Shown: positions 4,297 to 22,421, numbered from the stretch's first letter. The stretch is 46,882 bases of DNA from Bacillota bacterium (GCA_021324295.1 JAJPJJ010000102.1:1-46882); one strand, 5' to 3'. The notes: generated by a model not told the origin, from the sequence alone. A program made the numbers and translations.

Positions 4297-4346
4297 GAAC
4301 GCGGTCTGGGGGGCTTTTTTTGTTTGTGCGGGAGGGATCCGTCCGC

Positions 4347-5708
4347 GTGAAGATCAGCCATCCCGTCCGGCTGCTCGGCGTCGTCCTGATCACGCTGGCG
4401 GCGTTTTTGATCGCGTTCCAGCCGGTCCGCCTGAACGGGGCCACGCCTGTTCTCCAGCGGCCGGCCCTGCACGTCAACCTCGGGCTGGACCTCCAGGGCG
4501 GCAGCCACATCGTGCTGCAGGCCGCGCCGACGCCGCAGACGCCGATCAGCAACGACGCGATGGACGGGGTGCTGCGCATCATCCGCAACCGGGTGGACCA
4601 GCTCGGCGTCGCCGAGCCCGCGATCACCCGGCAGGGCCGGGACCGCGTCCTCGTCGAGCTGCCGGGCATCCAGAACCCGCAGCGGGCGATCGAGATCATC
4701 GGCAAGACGGCGCTGCTGGAGTTCGTGGACACGGGCAGCCAGTCGCTGCCCCAGGGTGCCGAGTGGCGGGGCACCGGCACGGTGGTGTTGCCGGACCGCT
4801 CGACGCTGCGGGTGCCCAAGAAGGTGATCCTGACCGGCGCCGACCTCGCCGACGCGCAGGTGACGTTCGACCAGTTCGGCCGGCCGCAGGTCGGGTTCAC
4901 GTTCAAGAGCTCGGCGGCACGGAAGTTCGAGGACTACACGACCAAGAACATCGGCAAGTACCTGACGATCGTCCTGGACAACCGCGTGATCAGCTCGCCG
5001 GTGATCAACAGCCCGATCCCCGGCGGGAAGGGCGTCATCGAGGGCGGGTTCACCCTGGACTCGGCGCGCGACCTCGCGGTGCTCCTGCGGGGCGGTGCGC
5101 TGCCGCTGCCGGTCCGGGTCGTGGAGAACCGGACCGTCGGCCCGCTCCTCGGCCGCGACTCGATCGACCGCAGCCTCCACGCCGGCGGGATCGCGATCGT
5201 GATGGTGGGCCTGTTCATGTTCCTCTACTACCGGTTCGCGGGCTTCCTGGCCGACGTCGCGCTCGGCGTGTACACGCTGATCCTCTTTGCGCTCTTGACC
5301 CTGCTCGGCGCCACGCTGACCCTGCCCGGGATCGCGGGGTTCATCCTCTCGCTCGGCGTGGCCGTCGACGCGAACGTCATCATCTTCGAGAAGGTCAAGG
5401 AGGAGCTACGGGCACACAAGACCCTGCGCACGGCCGTGGGCGCCGGGTGGAGCCGGGCGATCGTCACGATCTTCGACTCGAACACGACGACGCTGATCGG
5501 CGCCGTGGTCCTCCTGTGGTTGGGCACCGGCCCGGTCCGGGGATTCGCGGTCACGCTGATCCTCGGCATCCTGACCAGCATCTTTACCGCGATCGTGGTC
5601 ACCCGGGTGTTCGTGGACCTCGTCCTCGAGACGTCGCTGGCCCGGTGGATCCAGAGCCTCGCGTCGGTCGGGAGGGCCGCCGCACCGCCTGCCGGGGTGA
5701 CCCAGTGA
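4347..5708 (+). CDS. secD: Protein translocase subunit SecD
   Basis: Inner-membrane subunit that, with SecF, uses the proton gradient to help pull proteins through SecYEG. The 453-residue product starts with one membrane helix (about 9-25). The SecD periplasmic region follows, with NLGLDLQGGSHIVLQA and RNRVDQLGVAEPAI, and then the SecD P1 and head parts. About five membrane helices occupy the C-terminal third, including the family motifs near GVAVDANVIIFEKVKEEL. The GTG at 4347 follows GGAGGG by 10 bases; TTG 4320 and GTG 4326 are alternatives without as good a site. SecF follows after 56 bases, so the two are separate genes here, not the fused SecDF of B. subtilis. Confidence 0.95.
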   Translation: MKISHPVRLLGVVLITLAAFLIAFQPVRLNGATPVLQRPALHVNLGLDLQGGSHIVLQAAPTPQTPISNDAMDGVLRIIRNRVDQLGVAEPAITRQGRDRVLVELPGIQNPQRAIEIIGKTALLEFVDTGSQSLPQGAEWRGTGTVVLPDRSTLRVPKKVILTGADLADAQVTFDQFGRPQVGFTFKSSAARKFEDYTTKNIGKYLTIVLDNRVISSPVINSPIPGGKGVIEGGFTLDSARDLAVLLRGGALPLPVRVVENRTVGPLLGRDSIDRSLHAGGIAIVMVGLFMFLYYRFAGFLADVALGVYTLILFALLTLLGATLTLPGIAGFILSLGVAVDANVIIFEKVKEELRAHKTLRTAVGAGWSRAIVTIFDSNTTTLIGAVVLLWLGTGPVRGFAVTLILGILTSIFTAIVVTRVFVDLVLETSLARWIQSLASVGRAAAPPAGVTQ

Positions 5709-5764: not shown

Positions 5765-6859
5765 ATGGCGCAGGCATTCAACCTCATCGGGCGCCGGCGC
5801 TGGTGGTACGCGCTCTCGCTGGCGGTCATCATCCCGGGCCTCATCGCGCTCTACTACCACCACGTCCACGACCACCACGCGCTCAACTGGGGCGTCGACT
5901 TCACCGGCGGCAACTCGCTCGAGCTGCGGATCACCCAGCCGTTCACGATCGGGGAGATCCGGCAGGTGATGGACCGGTTCGGGCTAGGCGACGCGGTGAT
6001 CCAGCGGTCCGGCGAGAGCGAGGTGTTCGTCCGCACCCGGCCCCTCACCCAGGCGCAGACCAACCAGATCATCGACGCCATGCGTGGCCGCTTCCCCAGC
6101 ACGGTCATGCTGCGGGAGGATACCGTCGGTCCCGAGATCGGTGCCGAGCTGCGGAACATCGCGATCGTGGGCGTCGTCGTCGGCCTCGTCCTGCAGGTGA
6201 TCTTCATCTCGATCCGGTTCCGGTCGGTGCGTTTTGCGATCGCGGCGGACATCGCGCTGCTGCACGATCTCCTCGTCGTGATCGGCGCGTTCGCGCTGAC
6301 CCAGCGGGAGGTCAACAGTTCGTTCCTGGCGGTCCTGCTGACGGTCGCCGGCTACTCGATCAACGATACGATCGTGATCTTCGACCGGATCCGCGAGAAC
6401 CTGAGCTTCCGGACGCGCGAGCCGTTCGAGCACCTCGTGAACCGCAGCGTGCTGGAGGCGCTCGTCCGGTCGATCAACACCGCGATGACGGCCGTGCTCG
6501 CGATCGGCGCGGTGTACGTCTTCGGCGGGGAGACGATCCGGGACGTCGCGTTCGGCCTGGTCGTCAGCATCATCACCGGCGGCTATTCCTCGATCTTCAA
6601 CGCGAGCCCGATCCTGGTGGACTGGCACAACTGGGCGGAGCGCCGGCGCGCGCGCGCCGCAGGCCGCGAGCCCGGACCCGCCGCGCGGCCCGCGCCGGCC
6701 CCGCGCGAGGGCTCCGCGCTCTCGCCTGACGGCACCTCCCCGGCCGCGGGCTCGCTCGAGGTGCCGGCCATCGCGCCGGGCCAGCCCTACCCGCCGGCGA
6801 GACCCGCCCCGGTTCGTCCGGCCGGCGGCCGGCGGCGCCGCGGCCGCCGGCGGCGCTAG
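5765..6859 (+). CDS. secF: Protein translocase subunit SecF
   Basis: Partner of SecD in the accessory translocon complex of the cytoplasmic membrane. 364 residues. The N-terminal helix is followed by the SecF signature NWGVDFTGGNSLELRI (about 40-55). The conserved membrane part has AGYSINDTIVIFDRIRENL, the SecF family hallmark, and FGGETIRDVAFGLVVSIITGGYSSIF. A purine-rich GGGGGAG lies about 8 bases before the ATG. The last 75 residues or so, after VDWHNWAERRR, are a Pro/Ala/Arg-rich tail ending in an Arg cluster. The tail would lie on the cytoplasmic side and looks like a lineage extension. Transcribed with secD. Confidence 0.95.
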   Translation: MAQAFNLIGRRRWWYALSLAVIIPGLIALYYHHVHDHHALNWGVDFTGGNSLELRITQPFTIGEIRQVMDRFGLGDAVIQRSGESEVFVRTRPLTQAQTNQIIDAMRGRFPSTVMLREDTVGPEIGAELRNIAIVGVVVGLVLQVIFISIRFRSVRFAIAADIALLHDLLVVIGAFALTQREVNSSFLAVLLTVAGYSINDTIVIFDRIRENLSFRTREPFEHLVNRSVLEALVRSINTAMTAVLAIGAVYVFGGETIRDVAFGLVVSIITGGYSSIFNASPILVDWHNWAERRRARAAGREPGPAARPAPAPREGSALSPDGTSPAAGSLEVPAIAPGQPYPPARPAPVRPAGGRRRRGRRRR

Positions 6860-7404: not shown

Positions 7405-9036
7405 GTGGAGAGTGACGTGCCGGCAGAGCCCGGCGGGGGGCCGCCCGACGCACCCCGCCCGCGCGAGCCCGCTCTGGAGGGCCCCTCCGCCGAGGAGCAG
7501 GGCCAGGGGGGCGTGGCGACGCCGGCGCAGGAACGGGCGATCCTGCGCGAGGTGATCGCGCGCGCCCCTGCGGCGATCGCGTTGGTGTGGGGCCCCGAGC
7601 ACCGCGTCCGGCTGGTCAACGACCGCTGGCTGCGGCTCTTCCCGCAGCGCGGGCCGGTCCTCGGGCGGGCGGTGGCGGACGCCTTCCCGGACGTCGCACC
7701 GCTGGTGCTCCCGCTGCTCGACCGCGTCCGCGCGACGGGCCAGCCGTTCCGGGGCGAGGACACCCCGCTTCCGTTCGCCGGGGCGGCTGCGCACGACGCC
7801 TCTCGCTATTTCGCGTTCACGCTGAGCCCGATCCCCGGCCCCGGCGTCCCGCCCGCAGGGGTGCTCGTGATGGGCGCCGAGACCACCCGGGACGTACGGC
7901 GCCGGCGGCAGCTCGAGCAGGAGCTCGCGACGGAGCGCGGTGTCATCGAGGTGCTGCAGCGCAGCCTCTTGCCGGCGGCGCTCCCCGAGCTTCCCGGCGC
8001 GGTCCTGGCTGCCCGCTACGTGCCGGCGACCGACGAGGCGGTCGCCGGCGACTGGTACGATGCGATTCCGCTGGGAGACGCGCGCCTGGCGGTGGTGGTC
8101 GGGGACGTGGCCGGGCACGGCCTGCAGGCGGCCTCCGCGATGGCGCAGACGCGCAACGCGGTGCGCGCCTACGCCGTCGAGCACCAGGTCCCGGCCGTGG
8201 TGCTGGAGCGCGTGCACGCGTTGCTGCGGCGCCTGCTCCCGCACCTGATGGCGACCGTGCTGTACGGCGTCTTCGAGGTGAGCACGGGGACGTTCCGGTT
8301 CGCCTCGGCCGGACATCCGCCGCCGCTGCTCGTCACCCCGGCCGGCGCCGCCGGCTACGTCGAGGCACGCGCGCGGGTGCCGCTCGGCGTGAGCGCCTGC
8401 CGTGCCCAGCCCCCTCCGGGAGACGCCGTCGTGAGGCTCGCGCCGCATTCGACGCTGGTGCTGTACACGGATGGCCTCGTGGAGGAGCGGGGCGCGCCTC
8501 TCGACGAGGGGCTGGAGCGCCTGCGGCAGATTGTCCGGGGGGGACCGGCCGAGCCCGACCTTCTGTGCGATCACGTGCTGCGGACGCTCCGTCCCCACGG
8601 ATCGGTGGATGATCTGGCGCTGCTCGTGCTGCGCGTCGTACCGCTCCCCAGGGATCGGCTCGAGATGCACCTTCCCGCGGAGCCGGCGTCTCTCGACACG
8701 CTGCGACAGACCTTCTGGAGATGGCTGGAGGCCGCCGGAGCCGGGCCGGACGAGGTGAGCGCGCTCACCGCCGCGGCGACCGAGGCCTGCCGGAACGCCA
8801 TCCGGCATGCGTACGGCGGGGCCGCCGGCTCGCTCGGCGTGGAGGCGGTCAACCGCGACGGCGAGATCACCATCGTCGTGGGCGATCGCGGGCGCTGGCG
8901 GCCCCCCCGTACAGGATCCCCCGCCAGGGGGCTTGCCCTCATGCGTTCCCTCACCGACGCGGCCGTGGTCGAGCCGACACCGGGGGGCACGGTGGTGCAG
9001 CTCCGGCGCCGGCTGCGGAGGCAGGCGCTCCCATGA
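7405..9036 (+). CDS. PAS-like / SpoIIE-type PP2C phosphatase / HATPase fusion (stress-signalling regulator)
   Basis: 543 residues. Residues about 45-165 resemble a PAS sensor (REVIARAPAAIALVWGPEHRVRLVNDRW). Residues about 190-405 are a SpoIIE/RsbU-type Ser/Thr phosphatase with metal-binding motifs AGDWYDAIPL, VVGDVAGHGLQAA and LYTDGLVEER. Residues about 415-540 are an RsbW-like ATPase with an intact N box (TEACRNAIRHAY) and GDRG and RGLALMRSL motifs. Such proteins can both phosphorylate and dephosphorylate a STAS antagonist, and the next gene encodes one, overlapping by ATGA. The start is uncertain: GTG 7405 has no good ribosome site, and GTG 7513 behind a G-rich run is an alternative. The 212-base gap upstream holds only a lone TATAAA (7295-7300). 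Confidence 0.85.
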   Translation: MESDVPAEPGGGPPDAPRPREPALEGPSAEEQGQGGVATPAQERAILREVIARAPAAIALVWGPEHRVRLVNDRWLRLFPQRGPVLGRAVADAFPDVAPLVLPLLDRVRATGQPFRGEDTPLPFAGAAAHDASRYFAFTLSPIPGPGVPPAGVLVMGAETTRDVRRRRQLEQELATERGVIEVLQRSLLPAALPELPGAVLAARYVPATDEAVAGDWYDAIPLGDARLAVVVGDVAGHGLQAASAMAQTRNAVRAYAVEHQVPAVVLERVHALLRRLLPHLMATVLYGVFEVSTGTFRFASAGHPPPLLVTPAGAAGYVEARARVPLGVSACRAQPPPGDAVVRLAPHSTLVLYTDGLVEERGAPLDEGLERLRQIVRGGPAEPDLLCDHVLRTLRPHGSVDDLALLVLRVVPLPRDRLEMHLPAEPASLDTLRQTFWRWLEAAGAGPDEVSALTAAATEACRNAIRHAYGGAAGSLGVEAVNRDGEITIVVGDRGRWRPPRTGSPARGLALMRSLTDAAVVEPTPGGTVVQLRRRLRRQALP

Positions 9037-9416
9037 TCGGCATGCCTGCCCGGGTCACCGTTGTCGATCGCGAGGGCGTGCCGATCGCGTACGTGGAGGG
9101 GGAGATCGATCTCCAGAACGCCGAGGCCGTCGGCGATGCGCTGGGAGGGGCCGTCGCGCCGGCCTCCCCGGGACTCATCGTCGACCTCTCCGGCGTCACG
9201 TATCTCGACAGCGCCGGGCTGCACATCCTGTTCGATCTCGAGCGCAGGCTGTCCCGGGGCGGGCGGGCGCTCCGCTTGGTCATCCCCGACCGGGCGGTCA
9301 TCCGCCGCGTGCTGCTGATCGCCGGCGTGGGCGACCGCATCGCGCTCCACCCCGACGTGGACGACGCGGTACGCAGCCTGGCGGCGGGGGGCGACCGTCG
9401 AGATCTGCCGAGTTAG
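9033..9416 (+). CDS. STAS-domain anti-sigma factor antagonist (RsbV/SpoIIAA-like)
   Basis: 127 residues, essentially one STAS domain. The segment VTYLDSAGLHILF carries Ser60 in the Asp-Ser-Ala-Gly context that is phosphorylated in RsbV and SpoIIAA. Unphosphorylated antagonist binds the anti-sigma factor and frees the sigma factor. The ATG overlaps the stop of the preceding phosphatase/kinase gene (ATGA at 9033-9036), so translation is coupled and the two very likely form a regulatory pair. Its target may be the RsbW-like protein at 34966-35400, next to sigB. That link across 25 kb is inference. Confidence 0.88.
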   Translation: MIGMPARVTVVDREGVPIAYVEGEIDLQNAEAVGDALGGAVAPASPGLIVDLSGVTYLDSAGLHILFDLERRLSRGGRALRLVIPDRAVIRRVLLIAGVGDRIALHPDVDDAVRSLAAGGDRRDLPS

Positions 9417-9446
9417 CCGCGCCGGGCACGGCCGGGACCACCGAGA

Positions 9447-9452
9447 TATAAT
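9447..9452 (+). promoter_or_regulatory. Candidate -10 box (TATAAT) for recJ, near-leaderless
   Basis: A perfect TATAAT lies 9 bases before the recJ ATG, so the transcript would begin at or within about 3 bases of the start codon. No convincing -35 hexamer is present at 16-18 bases upstream, so activity may need an activator. No Shine-Dalgarno sequence fits between the box and the ATG, which agrees with leaderless initiation. Confidence 0.55.
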
Positions 9453-9461
9453 ATCGGTAAC

Positions 9462-12400
9462 ATGGCCGTGCTCGATCGAGCGGCGTGGGTTGTGGCGCCT
9501 CCCGACCCGGAGGCCGTGGAGCTCGCCCGGGCGCTCGGCGTGCCCCCGCTCCTCGCGGCACTGCTGCGCCGCCGCGGGGCGACGACGGTGGAGGCCGCGC
9601 GTGCGTTTCTGGACCCGCGGCTCGAGGACCTCTCCGATCCCCTCGCGACTCCCGGCATGTCCGAGGCGGTGGAGGCGATCGCGGATGCGCTGCGCTCGGG
9701 GCGGCGGATCGCCGTGCACGGCGACTACGACGTGGACGGGATCTCGGCGACCGCGATCCTGCTGCGCGCGCTGCGCGCGCTCGGCGCCGACCCGCTCTGG
9801 TACCTCCCCCACCGCGTCCACGACGGGTACGGGTTGAGCGCCGCCGCGGTCGAGCGGCTCGCGGCGCAGGGTGCGCGGCTGCTGATCGCGGTGGACTGCG
9901 GCATCACCGCGGAGCACGCCGTGGCCCGGGCGCGCGCCCTCGGGTGCGAGGTCGTCGTGCTCGACCACCACGTCCCCGGAGCGGGGCGCCCGATCGCGGT
10001 GGTGGCATCCCCGCCGCCCGGGGCGGCCGCGCCCCCGTGTGCCGCCGGGCTGGCGTTCCTCTGCGTGTGGGCGCTGCGGCGGCGCCTCGGCCACGTCTCG
10101 CCGCTTCCCGCCGACCTGGCGGCCCTCGCCGCGCTCGGCACGGTGGCCGATGTCGTTCCGCTGCGCGACGATAACCGGCGCCTCGCGGCCGCCGGGCTCG
10201 CGCAGATGCGGGACGCGCCGCCGGCCGGGGTGCGTGCCTTGATCGACGACGCCGGCGTCCAGGGCCCGGTGGACGCCTGGCACATCGGGTGGGTGCTCGG
10301 TCCCCGCCTGAACGCGCCGGGCCGGCTCGGCGACCCGGAGCCGGCCCTCCGGCTGCTCGTGACCGACGACGCGGCCGAGGCGCGCGACCTCGCGCGCCGG
10401 CTCGGCGAGCTGAACCGCGAGCGGCAGGCGATCCTGGAGCAGGTCCTCGCCGAGGCGGCAGCCCAGGCGGAGAGCGATCCCTCGTGCCCGGCGCTCGTGG
10501 TCGCGGGCCAGGGCTGGCACCCGGGCGTCGTGGGCCTGGTGGCCGGCCGCCTCGTCGAGCAGTACCGCCGCCCCGCCATCGCGATCGCGCTCGACGGAGA
10601 CGCCGGGCGCGGATCCGGCCGCAGCGTCGAGGGGTTCCATCTCGTGGAGGCGCTCGCGGCGTGCCAGGCCCACCTCCTCGGCTTCGGCGGTCACGCGATG
10701 GCCGCGGGGCTCTCGATCGCGGCGTGCGAGGTCGACGCGTTCCGCCGGGCGTTCTCCCAGGTCGCCTCCGCCCGCCCGGCGGCGGCGCCCGGTCGCATCA
10801 CGGTGGACGCGGAGGTGGCCCTCGGGGATCTCCGTCCGTCGCTCGCCGCGGACCTGGAGCGCCTGGCGCCGTTTGGCGTCGGGAACCCGCCCCCGGTGCT
10901 CGCGGTGCGCGGGGTCCGGGCGGTCGCGCGTCGCCTCGTCGGCGACGGCGCGCACCTCTGGCTCGGGGTGACCGACGGCAGCGCGTTCGTCGAGGCGATC
11001 GGCTTCGCGATGGCCGCGTGGGGAGAACTGCTTGCGTTCACGGACGCGCCGGTCGACCTCGCCTTCGTGCTCGAGCGGGACCGGATCGACCGCGAGCGCA
11101 TCCGGATCCGGTTGTGCGCGCTGGACGCGCCGGGCGTCGATCCGGACACCATCCTCGCCGATACCGGGCTCCTGATCGACCGCCTGTTCCGCCGCGCCTC
11201 CGACTACCTCGACGGGCAGCGGTACGCCGGGGTCGAGGATGCCGGGGAGCTGTACACGAAGGTCGTCGGCGTGACGTTCGAGGCGCGTCAGGCCGCCGTG
11301 GCGTCGCTGCGGGACGGCGATCCGCTCCGCCTGCGGCGCGAGCCGGCCAACCCGCACGATCCGCACGCGATCCAGGTGACCACCGACGACGGCCGGATGG
11401 TCGGCTACCTCAACGCGCAGCTCGCCGCGCGGCTCGCGCCCGCGATCGACATGGGCGCCCGGTACCGCGCGACGGTCGTGCGCGTCACCGGGGGCGGGGA
11501 CCGCGCGCTCGGCGTGAACGTCTACCTCGCGCGCGCCGACGACACGTCCCAGGGCGCGGACGGAGTCCGCCGCGCGTGGATCGCGACCGCGCCCGGGCGC
11601 GTCGTCGAGCGGCTGCCGCTCTACCTGACGGACGGCCGGCCGCTGCGGCCGGCGCTCGCCGAGGCGCTCGACGCCCTCGCCGGCGGGCGCTCGGCCGTGC
11701 TGTCCGTCCCGTGGGGGCGCGGCCGGGCGACCGCGGCCGCCGCCGGCTGCGCCCTCGCGGCGGGCCGGGGGACGTGGGCGCTCGTGGTGGCGCCCCGGCG
11801 CCGCCGGACGCTGCACCGCGCGGCACAGCTCGTGTCCCGTCTGTCCCCGCTCGGGCTCCGGATCGTCTCGGTCCACGGGCTGGCGGGCATGCGCGACCGC
11901 GAGCGCGCGGCGGCCGCGCTGCGGTCGGGCGAGGTCGATGTCATCGTGGCGAGCGTGGAGGCGGTGCGGGAGGGAGGTCTCCTCGCGCCGGCCCTCGCGC
12001 GCGTCGGCGTCGTCGTGCTGGACGGCCTCTCCCCCGACGAGATCCACGCGCTCGACGCCGTGCTGGCCGGCCCGCCGGCGCTGGCCGTGACCGCGGCGTT
12101 GACGTCTCACGCCTGCGCCCGGGCGATGCGCAGCCCCGTCATCCTGCACGACTACGGGCCCCGGCCGCCCCTTGGCATCGTCGACCGGCGTGGGAGCGCG
12201 TCCCGCGAGGACGAGGTGGAGGAAGTGCTGGCGAGGGGCGAGAAGACAGTGGTTTATGCCGTCGGTCGGGAGGAGTGCGTCCGGCTCGCGGCGCGCCTGC
12301 GCGATCGCATCGAGGCGGCGGGCCGGCGGATCGGCTACGTGCACGGCGGCCTTCCCGAGCGCCTCCGGCAGATCGTGACGCAGGGGTTCCGCGACGGGCG

Positions 12401-13022
12401 GATCGATGTTCTCGTCGCGACCCCGGCGCTCGACGAGGAGGCGCTGCCGCCGGACCTCCGGCACGTCGTCTTCTGGGACCTCCCCTGGGACCGCGAGGAG
12501 TTCCTCGCCGCCTGCGGGAGCGCGGGAGGCGACCGCCGGCCTGCCACGGTGACGATGGTGTTCGACCGGGACGATCGCGAGGCACGTCGGCGTCTGGACG
12601 CGGCAGCCCCGGATCGCCAGGCGCTGGTCGCGGTCTACCGGGCCCTGCGGGCGTGGAAGGGGGAGGAGCCGTTTCTCTGGCCCGACGACGGGACGTGGGC
12701 GTATCTCGCCGACGCGGTCCCCGGGCTCTCCCGGGCGACCGTGGGAGCGGCGTGCGCGATCTTCGAGGAGGCCGGGCTCGCCTCGCGGGAGAGTGCTGCG
12801 GGGCGTCCCCGTGCGGAGGGGCCCGACGGCGCCCCGGTCGCATCCGGCGGGCGTGGAAGCGCAGGCTGGCTCGTGCAGTTGACCTCTGTGGGGGGCCGGC
12901 GAGATCTCCTGACGTCGCTCCGGTACCGGGAGGGCCGGCGGGAGCGGAGGGCCTGGGAGACGCTCGCCGCGTGGGCCCACACGGCGGAGCCAGGGGAGAT
13001 CCTGCGGGCCGTGCTGGCCTAG
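9462..13022 (+). CDS. recJ: RecJ single-strand DNA exonuclease fused to a HIRAN domain and a degenerate RecQ-like helicase region
   Basis: RecJ digests single-stranded DNA 5' to 3' in recombination and mismatch repair. Residues 1-560 are a complete RecJ: GDYDVDGISA (Asp88, Asp90, Asp92), VDCGI, DHH (168-170), and the DHHA1 motif FGGHAMAAGL (His411). At 1186 residues it is far longer than ordinary RecJ (about 560-800). Residues about 595-690 look like a HIRAN domain (TKVVGVTFEARQ ... REPANPHDPHAIQV ... VGYLNAQLA). From about 700 a RecQ/SF2-like helicase follows, but its catalytic residues are gone. Walker A is GRGRAT with Arg755 for Lys, DEAH is DGLS at 854-857, and motif VI is GSAGGD at 1019-1024 instead of GRAGRD. 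The fused part is probably a DNA-binding scaffold, not a motor. Confidence 0.9.
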   Translation: MAVLDRAAWVVAPPDPEAVELARALGVPPLLAALLRRRGATTVEAARAFLDPRLEDLSDPLATPGMSEAVEAIADALRSGRRIAVHGDYDVDGISATAILLRALRALGADPLWYLPHRVHDGYGLSAAAVERLAAQGARLLIAVDCGITAEHAVARARALGCEVVVLDHHVPGAGRPIAVVASPPPGAAAPPCAAGLAFLCVWALRRRLGHVSPLPADLAALAALGTVADVVPLRDDNRRLAAAGLAQMRDAPPAGVRALIDDAGVQGPVDAWHIGWVLGPRLNAPGRLGDPEPALRLLVTDDAAEARDLARRLGELNRERQAILEQVLAEAAAQAESDPSCPALVVAGQGWHPGVVGLVAGRLVEQYRRPAIAIALDGDAGRGSGRSVEGFHLVEALAACQAHLLGFGGHAMAAGLSIAACEVDAFRRAFSQVASARPAAAPGRITVDAEVALGDLRPSLAADLERLAPFGVGNPPPVLAVRGVRAVARRLVGDGAHLWLGVTDGSAFVEAIGFAMAAWGELLAFTDAPVDLAFVLERDRIDRERIRIRLCALDAPGVDPDTILADTGLLIDRLFRRASDYLDGQRYAGVEDAGELYTKVVGVTFEARQAAVASLRDGDPLRLRREPANPHDPHAIQVTTDDGRMVGYLNAQLAARLAPAIDMGARYRATVVRVTGGGDRALGVNVYLARADDTSQGADGVRRAWIATAPGRVVERLPLYLTDGRPLRPALAEALDALAGGRSAVLSVPWGRGRATAAAAGCALAAGRGTWALVVAPRRRRTLHRAAQLVSRLSPLGLRIVSVHGLAGMRDRERAAAALRSGEVDVIVASVEAVREGGLLAPALARVGVVVLDGLSPDEIHALDAVLAGPPALAVTAALTSHACARAMRSPVILHDYGPRPPLGIVDRRGSASREDEVEEVLARGEKTVVYAVGREECVRLAARLRDRIEAAGRRIGYVHGGLPERLRQIVTQGFRDGRIDVLVATPALDEEALPPDLRHVVFWDLPWDREEFLAACGSAGGDRRPATVTMVFDRDDREARRRLDAAAPDRQALVAVYRALRAWKGEEPFLWPDDGTWAYLADAVPGLSRATVGAACAIFEEAGLASRESAAGRPRAEGPDGAPVASGGRGSAGWLVQLTSVGGRRDLLTSLRYREGRRERRAWETLAAWAHTAEPGEILRAVLA

Positions 13023-13044
13023 CGCTGCGGTGCCAGCACGCGAG

Positions 13045-13058
13045 GCCGCTCTAGCGGC
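13045..13058. repeat. Small palindrome between recJ and relA
   Basis: GCCGCT and AGCGGC are separated by 2 bases in the 63-base gap between recJ and relA. It could be a weak hairpin or a protein site. There is no T-run. Noted for completeness. Confidence 0.2.
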
Positions 13059-13085
13059 GGCCGGCCCGGGGCGCGGCGTACGGTG

Positions 13086-15341
13086 ATGGCGGACGAGGGG
13101 ACTCGCCCGAAGACCGGAATGGTCACAGAGGTGATGAAGCGGTTCCATCTCGCGCGGGGAGCCGCGGAGGAGCATCTGCTCCCCGACGCGGTCGACCTCC
13201 TGCGGCGCGTCCGCGAGACGATGCCCCACGCGGACCTGGACCTCCTCCGCCGCGCGTACCTCTTTGCCCAGGAGGCGCACGCGAGCCAGACGCGGGCGTC
13301 CGGGGAGCCCTACGTGAGCCACAGCGTCGCGGTCGCCTCGATCCTCGTGGGGCTGCGCCTCGACACCCCCACGATCGCCGCGGCCCTGCTGCACGACGTG
13401 CCGGAGGATACGCCGCACTCGATCGACGAGATCCGGGAGAAGTTCGGTCCGGAGATCGCCGGGCTCGTGGACGGCGTGACCAAACTGGGCCGTATCGAGT
13501 GGAAGAGCCGGGAGGAGCGCCAGGCCGAAAACCTGCGGAAGATGTTCCTGGCGATGGCGAGCGATATCCGCATCATCCTGATCAAGCTCGCCGACCGCGT
13601 GCACAACATGCGCACGATCGAGTTCCTGCCGGAGTGGAAGCAGAAGCGCACCGCGCAAGAGACGCTGGAGATCTACGCGCCGCTGACCGAGCGGCTGGGC
13701 ATCGGGAGCATCAAGCGCGAGCTGGAGGACCGCGCCTTCCGCCTCCTCGAGCCCGAGGCGTACCGCGAGATCGCGGGACAGATCGAGCGGAGCAGCCAGG
13801 AGCAGGAGGCCCTCCTGGGTCGCGTCATCGACACGCTCCACCGGGAGCTGAACCGTGCCGGCATCCGCGTCGACCGCGCCGGCGTCACCGGCCGCCCCAA
13901 GCACGTGTACAGCATCTACCAGAAGATGCAGCGTCCCAAGTACCAGGGCCAGGGCGTGGGACGCGTGTATGACCGGCTGGCCGTCCGCGTGGTCGTCAAC
14001 GACGTCCGCGAGTGCTACGAGACGCTCGGGATCGTCCACTCGCTGTGGAAGCCGATCCCGGGCGAGGTCGACGACTACATCGCCAACCCCAAGACGAGCG
14101 GCTACCAGTCGCTGCACACGGCCGTGCTGTGCGAGGGGCAGCCGCTGGAGGTCCAGATCCGGACGCACGAGATGCACCGGGTCGCCGAGCACGGGATCGC
14201 CGCGCACTGGCGATACAAGGAAGGCGGCGCCAAGGCCGAGCCGGGGTTCGAACAGAAGCTCTCGTGGCTCCGCCAGCTCCTGGAGTGGCACCAGGAGATG
14301 CAGGACGCGCGCGAGTTCATGCACTCGGTCAAGCTGGACCTCTTTCAGAACGAGGTGTTCGTCTTCACCCCGAAGGGGGACGTGATCGACCTGCCCGCCG
14401 GCGCCACGCCGGTCGACTTCGCCTTCCGCATCCACACGGACGTCGGGTACCACACGACCGGCGCCCGGGTGAACGGGCGGCTGGTGCCCCTGAGCTACCG
14501 CCTGCAGTCCGGCGACATCGTCGAGGTGCTGACCCACAAGAGCAGCGGGGGCCCCAGTCGGGACTGGCTGGGGTTCGTGCAGACGAGCAACGCGCGGACG
14601 AAGATCCAGCAATGGTTCAAGCGCGAGCGCCGCGACGAGAACATCGTCCGCGGGCGGGAGCTCCTGGAGAAGGAGCTTCGCCGCAGCGGCCCCGTGGCGG
14701 CGGCGATGAAGCCGGAACGCCTCCGGGACGTGGCCGGACGCTTTGGGCTGCCGAACGAAGAGGAGCTGTACGCGGCGCTCGGCAACGGCGACGTATCGCT
14801 GCTGCACGTGGTCCAGGCGCTGCGCGGCGAGCCTGCGTCCGAGGAGGAGGAGGCCCCGGCCCAACCGCCCGCCAAGCCGGCGCCGTCCGCCGCGCACGGG
14901 ATCCGCGTCCGGGGCGTGGACAACGTGCTGATGCGGTTCGGGAGGTGCTGCAGCCCGCTGCCCGGTGACCGGGTGATCGGCTACATCACGCAGGGCCGCG
15001 GCGTGAGCATCCACCGCGCCGACTGCCCTAACATCCAGTTCCTCCGGGCCCACCCGGAGCGGCTGATCGAGGTGGAGTGGGACGCCTCCGCGGACGGCAC
15101 GTACCAGGTGGAGATCGAGGTGGAGGCGCTGGACCGCGTCGGCCTGCTCAAGGACATCCTGTCCGCGATCACGGAGACAAAGACCAACGTTGTATCGGTC
15201 AACGCCCGCGTGCGCAAGGACAAGGTCGGGATCGTGAACATCGTGGTGGACATCCGCAACGTGACGCAGCTCGCGGGCGTGATGCACCGGATCGGCCAGG
15301 TCAAGGAGGTCTACAGCGTCGAGCGGGTCGTGCCCCACTGA
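13086..15341 (+). CDS. relA: Bifunctional (p)ppGpp synthetase/hydrolase, Rel/SpoT type
   Basis: Makes and degrades the stringent-response alarmone. 751 residues with the full long-RSH layout. The hydrolase domain (about 60-200) has an intact HD motif in AALLHDVPEDT. The synthetase domain (about 250-370) has GRPKHVYSIYQKM, YDRLAVRVVV and PKTSGYQSLHTAV. A TGS domain starts near 415 (VFVFTPKGDVIDLPAGATPVDFAF) and a C-terminal ACT domain covers about the last 75 residues. Intact hydrolase and synthetase motifs suggest the bifunctional Rel of Gram-positive-type bacteria. A GTG directly before the ATG at 13086 could also serve as start. In B. subtilis apt lies between recJ and relA; it is missing here. 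Confidence 0.95.
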   Translation: MADEGTRPKTGMVTEVMKRFHLARGAAEEHLLPDAVDLLRRVRETMPHADLDLLRRAYLFAQEAHASQTRASGEPYVSHSVAVASILVGLRLDTPTIAAALLHDVPEDTPHSIDEIREKFGPEIAGLVDGVTKLGRIEWKSREERQAENLRKMFLAMASDIRIILIKLADRVHNMRTIEFLPEWKQKRTAQETLEIYAPLTERLGIGSIKRELEDRAFRLLEPEAYREIAGQIERSSQEQEALLGRVIDTLHRELNRAGIRVDRAGVTGRPKHVYSIYQKMQRPKYQGQGVGRVYDRLAVRVVVNDVRECYETLGIVHSLWKPIPGEVDDYIANPKTSGYQSLHTAVLCEGQPLEVQIRTHEMHRVAEHGIAAHWRYKEGGAKAEPGFEQKLSWLRQLLEWHQEMQDAREFMHSVKLDLFQNEVFVFTPKGDVIDLPAGATPVDFAFRIHTDVGYHTTGARVNGRLVPLSYRLQSGDIVEVLTHKSSGGPSRDWLGFVQTSNARTKIQQWFKRERRDENIVRGRELLEKELRRSGPVAAAMKPERLRDVAGRFGLPNEEELYAALGNGDVSLLHVVQALRGEPASEEEEAPAQPPAKPAPSAAHGIRVRGVDNVLMRFGRCCSPLPGDRVIGYITQGRGVSIHRADCPNIQFLRAHPERLIEVEWDASADGTYQVEIEVEALDRVGLLKDILSAITETKTNVVSVNARVRKDKVGIVNIVVDIRNVTQLAGVMHRIGQVKEVYSVERVVPH

Positions 15342-15466
15342 GCAGCGCGCGGGGCGCAGGCGATCGACGCCAGGTCCGCGGTGCGGCCCGTGCGGCACGG
15401 CAGGCGGTGCGCGGCAGGGACGACAGGGCGCGGGGGCTGGCCCGCGCGCGTGTACAGGAGGGGGAG

Positions 15467-21762: not shown

Positions 21763-21769
21763 AAAGGTG

Positions 21770-21953
21770 GCTCCTGCGGTGTGCGCTAGGCCCGTGGTCC
21801 CGAGCCAACAGGAGCACGAAGGGAGCCCGGCTTCGGACGGCAACGGCACGGCCCCGTACGCGCTGACCGGCTGGGGCTAGCCGGACCCGCCCGAGAGGGC
21901 ACCCACCTGCGAGGCGCAGGTTCGGGGACTGCGGCCGGCGGCACCGCGGGAGC
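21770..21953 (+). ncRNA. ssrS: 6S RNA (regulator of the housekeeping RNA polymerase holoenzyme)
   Basis: 6S RNA mimics an open promoter and sequesters RNA polymerase. The two ends form a closing helix of 12 base pairs: GCTCCTGCGGTG at 21770-21781 with CACCGCGGGAGC at 21942-21953, with one G-U pair. The 184-base length equals that of typical 6S RNAs. The 5' half (TGGTCCCGAGCC) resembles the E. coli 6S segment around AGTCCCCTGAGCC. The 3' half has a hairpin ACCTGC-GAGGC-GCAGGT on the 3' side of the expected central bubble, followed by a GGGGACTGCGGC region like the E. coli GGGTTACAGCCTGCGGC. An apical hairpin CCGGCT-N6-AGCCGG lies at about 21870-21887. Its own promoter starts at the first stem base. 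B. subtilis 6S-1 is also next to aspS. Confidence 0.85.
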
Positions 21954-22421
21954 GTCTCCCGCCGCCGGACTGGCGCGCGCACCCGCCCGATGACGCCCGC
22001 GCACCGCACCCCCGCCGACTCCTCGCCTGCGCTGCAGTCGCATTTCATCCAGCCGGGGACCCGGTCGATCGGGATCGTGGGCGGCAAGGGGGATGCCGGC
22101 GTGCCGGCCGCCCGCGCGTTCCTCGACAGCGCCGCGGCCGTGCGCCGGCTCTGCCCCTCGCCGCCGTAGCCGCCGTCTTCGCATCCCGGCCAGAGCGCGG
22201 GTGGGGGCGAGGCCGGTCCCCCGCTCCCGGGACGCGCTCCAGCGCGGGCCGGCGGTCCGCCGGACGCGACGGCGCCGATCGGAGGGGCCGCCGGCCCGAC
22301 GGGGTCCTCCGCTGACCTACTTGGTCGAGACCGAGACCCGCGTCCGCCCCGGGGCAGATCCTCGTCGGCCCGCGCAACCGCCCCCCGATGTGGCCGCAGG
22401 ACACCGGGCCTCCGCGGCAAG
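21954..22421. other. Intergenic stretch between 6S RNA and the formate dehydrogenase operon
   Basis: About 470 bases without a gene I can support. One frame, ATG 21990 to TAG 22169 (59 residues), contains IGIVGGKGDAGVPAA, which has a nucleotide-binding look. It lacks a ribosome site and any further family match. The rest is very GC-rich with many short inverted repeats of no clear type. No tRNA-Sec or sel gene is present. Confidence 0.45.

Follow-up and report, generated by a model that had tools for sequence, protein, structure and literature searches.

We analysed a stretch of 46,882 nucleotides from Bacillota bacterium (GCA_021324295.1 JAJPJJ010000102.1:1-46882; "the window" in what follows is this whole stretch), in which an open reading frame (ORF) starting with ATG runs in one frame from 9462 to 13022 on the plus strand and encodes a protein of 1186 residues. 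The original prediction, made from the DNA sequence alone, had read this protein as the exonuclease RecJ, fused to a HIRAN-like domain and to a RecQ relative that seemed to have been captured and to have lost its motor role, possibly serving DNA-end recognition or strand separation. In the RecF repair pathway, RecJ and RecQ form the textbook pair of nuclease and helicase but are separate proteins. Our analysis goes beyond the original prediction in that a living form of the helicase was found as a stand-alone protein, that the C-terminal ~140 residues form a conserved winged-helix-like tail, and that RecA2 plus this tail is the C-terminal domain of many ordinary RecJ proteins.

Domain architecture of the fused RecJ protein

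The presence of a RecJ part with all metal-binding motifs was borne out by a score of 437 bits against the TIGR00644 recJ equivalog model (cut-off 396.9) and by the positions of the motifs GDYDVDG (residues 87-93), VDCG (144-147), DHH (168-170), GTVADVV (226-232), RLNAPGR (282-288), GWHPG (351-355) and GGHAMAAG (409-416). Judged by its sequence, the protein is a RecJ with intact DHH and DHHA1 metal-binding motifs, and 5'-3' exonuclease activity on single-stranded DNA (ssDNA) is predicted for it. The HIRAN domain at residues 595-681 (PF08797, 57.9 bits against a gathering cut-off of 24.7) is the only one in the window genome. Further downstream, the Pfam scan of the protein returned a Helicase_C match at residues 919-1019 (54.4 bits, cut-off 23.5) and no DEAD-domain match, because RecA1 is degenerate; the profile of the fused family restores it. 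This profile aligns both RecA domains with RecQ structures, among them 4tmu as the best (E 2e-21), RECQL4 and E. coli RecQ 1oyw, and the similarity to helicases is therefore far beyond chance. In the RecQ profile alignment, the three degenerate motifs PWGRGRA (residues 750-756), DGLS (854-857) and ACGSAGGDRR (1017-1026) fall at the Walker A, DEAH and motif VI positions, respectively. Alignment with the active relatives described below confirmed the replacements that had been claimed: arginine stands for the Walker A lysine, glycine for the glutamate of DEAH, and serine and glycine for the two motif VI arginines. The RecQ family score of the protein (35.8 bits) lies below the cut-off of 219.8, and residues 1046-1186 hold a single cysteine, so that the zinc-binding cysteines of the RQC region are not present.

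An AlphaFold2 model of residues 546-1186, calculated with 13 sequences, has a mean predicted local distance difference test (pLDDT) score of 71, with values mostly between 80 and 96 in HIRAN and between 73 and 91 in both RecA domains. The best Foldseek matches of this model were RecQ (6crm, E 5e-15; 1oyw), WRN and RECQL5, and comparison with E. coli RecQ 1oyw by VIA gave a Z score of 21.8 and a root mean square deviation (rmsd) of 5.5 over 357 residues. The C-terminal region is thus modelled as a HIRAN domain and a RecQ-type RecA pair, with the two RecA folds predicted to be arranged as in RecQ. In this way, both similarities proposed for the C-terminal region were recovered, HIRAN by Pfam, the RecQ-like helicase by profile alignment and Foldseek, and each of them in the predicted structure. 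A long antisense ORF (8571-15398) overlaps the gene and was taken as a high-GC shadow frame.

Table 1 Features of the fused gene and of its neighbours in the window.
Feature	Coordinates	Strand	Evidence
RecJ-HIRAN-dead RecQ fusion protein, 1186 residues	9462..13022	+	ORF; extension homologues in 41/43 phylum genomes
DHH domain, residues 82-227, with GDYDVDG, VDCG, DHH and GTVADVV motifs	9705..10142	+	PF01368 68 bits; motif positions
DHHA1 domain, residues 345-435	10494..10766	+	PF02272 53.6 bits
RecJ OB domain, residues 448-541	10803..11084	+	PF17768 61.7 bits
Linker helix before HIRAN, residues 546-594, common to stand-alone HIRAN-RecQ helicases	11097..11243	+	Alignment with active relatives; helix 16-45 of model
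HIRAN domain, residues 595-681	11244..11504	+	PF08797 57.9 bits; HLTF HIRAN chains E 5e-10
Dead RecA1 domain, residues about 715-890	11604..12131	+	Profile alignment with RecQ; model pLDDT mostly 73-91
Walker A remnant PWGRGRA (active relatives GTGRGKS)	11709..11729	+	Lys lost in 34/34 fused copies
Motif II remnant DGLS (active relatives DEAHH)	12021..12032	+	Glu lost in 33/34 fused copies
Dead RecA2 domain, residues about 905-1045	12174..12596	+	PF00271 54.4 bits; profile alignment
Motif VI remnant ACGSAGGDRR (active relatives QQSGRAGRDG)	12510..12539	+	First Arg lost in 34/34, second in 31/34
C-terminal winged-helix-like region and RRDLxxSxRYxEG tail, residues 1046-1186	12597..13019	+	Common to active helicases and C-terminal extensions of other RecJs
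secD, upstream neighbour defining the gene slot	4320..5708	+	Conserved order (tblastn)
secF, upstream neighbour	5765..6859	+	PF02355 184 bits
relA/spoT, downstream neighbour, order conserved in phylum	13083..15341	+	PF04607, PF13328; tblastn order

A separate RecQ was looked for with the RecQ family model, and no member above the cut-off was found in the window genome or in 42 of the 43 genomes sampled from its phylum. The sole RecQ above the cut-off in the phylum is a DinG-RecQ fusion, named by eye (L127, on G002:C17); it lies directly 5' of a very large sacsin-like gene, also recognised by eye, and this is probably an accessory locus. RecO, an AddB/AdnB-like nuclease and several single-stranded DNA-binding proteins (SSBs) are present, and the best-scoring SSB ends in DDDVPF. 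In genome G000, SSB-domain matches occur at seven places, and one of the four that were read has this typical SSB tip (DDDVPF).

Retention and relatives of the helicase extension

The phylum, one of uncultured bacteria, was sampled by 43 species-level genomes, 28 of which were classed as good (completeness at least 90%, contamination at most 5%). It may be Sysuimicrobiota (CSP1-3), which comprises a single class and order known from soils and hot springs (PMC11604079). An extension of ~620 residues was present in 41 of the 43 genomes and in all 28 good ones, the two misses being 69 and 72% complete. In a full-length search, relatives from the same family and order matched over residues 1-1184, whereas in other genomes the match was to RecJ alone and stopped near residue 550. 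The search for the RecJ+HIRAN architecture suggested by the original prediction thus placed the fusion throughout the phylum, while none was seen in 343 genomes outside it or among 80 named RecJ loci. Other HIRAN matches outside the phylum were mostly to small or unrelated proteins, active helicases excepted. Sequencing error or a local pseudogene was ruled out by the independent assemblies of 41 genomes that have the same fusion. Among 34 fused copies, the Walker A lysine and the first motif VI arginine are kept in none, the glutamate of DEAH in one and the second arginine in three, with replacements that vary between lineages. Intact relatives, which might have marked the window copy as mis-sequenced, are therefore not found among the fused proteins. 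Most copies do retain a glycine-rich GPGRG loop in place of Walker A, and conservation of motif IV (YxHxGLP) is strong.

Ratios of nonsynonymous to synonymous substitution rates (dN/dS), calculated by the Nei-Gojobori method for 12 close pairs, were 0.05-0.22 for HIRAN, 0.18-0.41 for RecA1 and 0.15-0.34 for RecA2. They were well below 1 in all domains, with the constraint on HIRAN usually equal to or above that on RecJ; purifying selection thus acts on the dead helicase core. Within the extension, conservation is highest in HIRAN (43% of columns), followed by the C-terminal tail (30%, counting columns at least 80% conserved), where the helicase part is conserved best; it is lowest in RecA1, with 9% (at 80% identity). 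Invariant residues persist in both HIRAN and the tail. Two genomes have a shorter and more degenerate HIRAN and core, and no clear truncation of the fusion was seen except at contig ends. With regard to the pocket by which the HIRAN of HLTF takes up 3' ends, the position of Y72 is occupied by Phe in 30 of the 34 fused copies, and D94 is kept in all of them.

The HIRAN profile search covered 386 genomes. Outside the phylum, long and strong matches were confined to one family, f133, of another phylum, in which they are near-universal. These proteins (L178 and L179, 666 and 707 residues) are stand-alone and have the order linker-HIRAN-RecA1-RecA2-tail. A third active HIRAN-RecQ (L158:3001-4947) comes from a provirus contig, where its neighbours are replication genes of phage-like type. 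The stand-alone helicases share 31-32% identity with the window region and have intact GTGRGKS, DEAHH and GRAGRDG motifs, all of which are kept in 11 of 11 active sequences. Comparison of the fused and active family profiles gave 100% (E 1e-95, 606 columns), and in a tree the two groups are separated by one fully supported branch (100/100). This is compatible with a single loss of activity that preceded the diversification of the phylum but, the tree being unrooted, does not prove it. Capture of a RecQ relative that became a non-motor part is the best reading of the extension, and a likely donor type is a HIRAN-RecQ helicase with intact motifs, extant elsewhere. We also sought the active helicase in phages and plasmids, where only RecQ-type cores were found, none covering 80% of the query, and our literature search found neither a description of active HIRAN-RecQ helicases nor anything pertinent on RecJ+HIRAN, RecJ-RecQ fusions or pseudohelicases.

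RecJ proteins of other families in the phylum of f133 are often ~800 residues long and carry an extension of ~240 residues. Aligned with hhalign, this extension (A5) matched the RecA2+tail end of the fused protein with 98.7% (E 5e-16) and that of the active helicases with 99.1%, compared to at most 0.3% for reversed and column-shuffled controls. RecA2 alone and the tail alone each match the extension (94.8-97.3%), whereas RecA1 and HIRAN do not; canonical RecQ is much weaker (51.7%), and other superfamily 2 (SF2) helicases do not match (3.0%). The family model also directly matches the tails of named RecJs from Thermoleophilaceae (L043, L104) and, more weakly, those from Solirubrobacterales (L107) and from one Bacillota bacterium (L061); a tail is lacking in most of the 80 named RecJs. 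When the L043 tail was modelled, its best Foldseek match was S. aureus RecJ 8y30 (E 0.01, probability 0.96), and its best VIA matches were SF2 RecA-type domains (Z about 9), with residues 562-748 of 8y30 at Z 9.0 and rmsd 13, which is suggestive, not strong, evidence of a kinship of fold with S. aureus RecJ and SF2 proteins. Since the extension is homologous to RecA2 plus tail, "domain IV" of RecJ looks like a relic of a fused helicase, and the tail of ordinary RecJs appears, from these sequence comparisons, to be what is left of this helicase. Two further RecJ-like proteins were noted by eye: one of 1004 residues (L200) with an apparently dead RecA1+RecA2+tail and no HIRAN, and one (L221:946-3216, G059) whose DHH region is interrupted by an apparent DnaQ-type 3'-5' exonuclease domain.

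The order secD-secF-(lapA-like)-recJ-relA is conserved throughout the phylum as judged by tblastn, and recJ follows secDF in several other phyla as well (12 of the 80 named RecJ loci). In f133, the active helicase gene comes directly after secD-secF, which is the slot of recJ in the window's phylum, and the RecJ model found no RecJ in any of the 12 f133 genomes to which it was applied. The same slot thus holds a nuclease with a dead helicase in one phylum, and a live helicase without the nuclease in f133. A strict exclusion of RecJ by the active helicase was not upheld, as genomes of families f258, f265 and f267 of the same phylum lack both. A defence system was considered and rejected, because the PADLOC matches were no more than cross-hits of helicases (DpdF, for example) and of HIRAN, and the gene belongs to a housekeeping cluster, secDF-recJ-relA. 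In the window, the interval from the lapA-like gene to recJ holds a SpoIIE-type phosphatase with a HATPase domain followed by a STAS-like protein (7405-9416, plus strand), the phosphatase being unique to the window among the relatives examined. A 6S RNA lies at 21768-21956 on the plus strand (52.4 bits, above the Rfam gathering score).

Proposed function and origin of the motor-less extension

We read the window protein as the phylum's RecJ ssDNA 5'-3' exonuclease with a motor-less HIRAN-RecQ C-terminus, kept as a docking module for DNA ends and SSB, and give this reading a probability of roughly 0.6. In the secDF-recJ-relA cluster, an active HIRAN-RecQ gene that adjoined recJ or was fused to it would have been joined to recJ, and its ATPase would have decayed once, before the phylum diversified, while the shell was kept for docking. 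HIRAN and the dead RecA pair may then keep hold of the 3'-ending strand where the DNA has an end or a gap, while the winged-helix-like tail docks on the C-terminal tip of SSB, so that the 5' strand would be fed to the nuclease without ATP, and unwinding would be left to another helicase or to SSB. Docking of the tail on SSB is proposed because the best-scoring SSB ends in DDDVPF, the C-terminal domain of Deinococcus RecJ binds the SSB C-terminal tail (SSB-Ct; PMC4846377) and the SSB tip is bound by the RecQ winged helix (PMC7145534). The most likely function of the extension would accordingly be that of a non-motor dock holding DNA ends and SSB for RecJ.

Several observations weigh against this reading. 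No biochemistry was found for any member of the family, nor any fusion in which the helicase motifs are intact. Given its poor conservation, RecA1 may serve chiefly as a scaffold. The HIRAN pocket resembles that of HLTF only in part, with R71 mostly replaced by Thr and Y93 mostly by His, and 3'-end specificity is thus a prediction. The final ~75 residues of the structural model are of poor confidence. The C-terminal domain of Deinococcus RecJ, for which HHpred gave no homologue (PMC4663267), had no sequence match with the extension and was not among the fold matches listed for the L043 tail either, which makes the SSB analogy indirect.

If the dead helicase were a functionless, decaying remnant that is still translated owing to its fusion with an important nuclease, the low conservation of RecA1, its dN/dS of up to 0.41 and the degenerate HIRAN and core of two genomes would be expected; we consider this quite unlikely in view of the retention of the whole extension in nearly all genomes of the phylum, the dN/dS values well below 1 everywhere, a HIRAN usually constrained like RecJ or more, and the persistence of invariant residues in HIRAN and tail with no clear truncation except at contig ends. 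That the core is still a motor, binding or hydrolysing ATP in an unorthodox way, would explain the glycine-rich loop and the strongly kept motif IV. This is very improbable, however, as the residues lost in all or all but one of the 34 copies are those of catalysis and their replacements differ between lineages, and we know of no SF2 helicase that catalyses without the Walker A lysine, the motif II glutamate and the motif VI arginine. More serious, though still doubtful, is the view that the extension serves protein contacts only, with SSB or another helicase, and has no direct DNA-binding role: within the helicase part, conservation is highest at the tail end, and the C-terminal domains of Deinococcus RecJ bind HerA (PMC4663267) in addition to SSB-Ct, but conservation across the whole extension peaks in HIRAN, and the known activity of the HLTF HIRAN is the binding of ssDNA 3' ends (PMC4666394).

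Decay of a fused helicase appears to have gone further in some RecJ lineages than in others, with a live form extant elsewhere. The dead helicase is complete in the window's phylum, and in many RecJs a RecA2+tail stump or nothing is left, while one lineage would have taken the reverse course, keeping a live helicase in the recJ slot and losing the nuclease; we would give even odds to this reading, in which RecJ and a partner helicase were once one protein and the SSB-docking tail of RecJ is what remains of it. A phylum with a fused RecJ-RecQ that has lost its motor, and with no other RecQ, raises the question of how DNA ends are opened there. The fusion is a natural separation-of-function protein, which lets one ask about the share of a helicase shell in resection without ATP, and the active HIRAN-RecQ helicases offer a ready comparison for the dead fused form. 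Homology to ordinary RecJ extensions suggests an origin for a domain type without recognised relative, as described in Deinococcus (PMC4663267), and predicts where the SSB site may come from.

Comparison with known systems

With bacterial RecJ (TIGR00644; E. coli, Thermus, Deinococcus), the window protein shares the DHH, DHHA1 and OB domains with all motifs, but adds HIRAN and a complete dead RecQ-type core. RecJ digests ssDNA 5' ends, and E. coli RecJ needs its separate partner RecQ for blunt or 3'-overhang ends (PMC4846377), whereas the window genome has no RecQ above the family cut-off. With regard to RecJ domain IV (S. aureus, Thermoleophilia, Deinococcus), the extensions from Thermoleophilia, Bacillota and others are homologous to the RecA2+tail of the window protein but lack HIRAN and RecA1. 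RecQ helicases resemble the window core in fold and in the alignment of both RecA domains, while the core lacks their ATPase residues and zinc cysteines. In the HLTF/Rad5 translocases, HIRAN is likewise joined to an SF2 core, but unlike the window protein these have a SWI/SNF motor, a RING domain and a live ATPase (PMC4666394). Stand-alone HIRAN-RecQ helicases (L178, L179, L158) have the same domain order as the extension, but their motifs are intact and they are unfused, L178 and L179 being found in genomes that have no RecJ.

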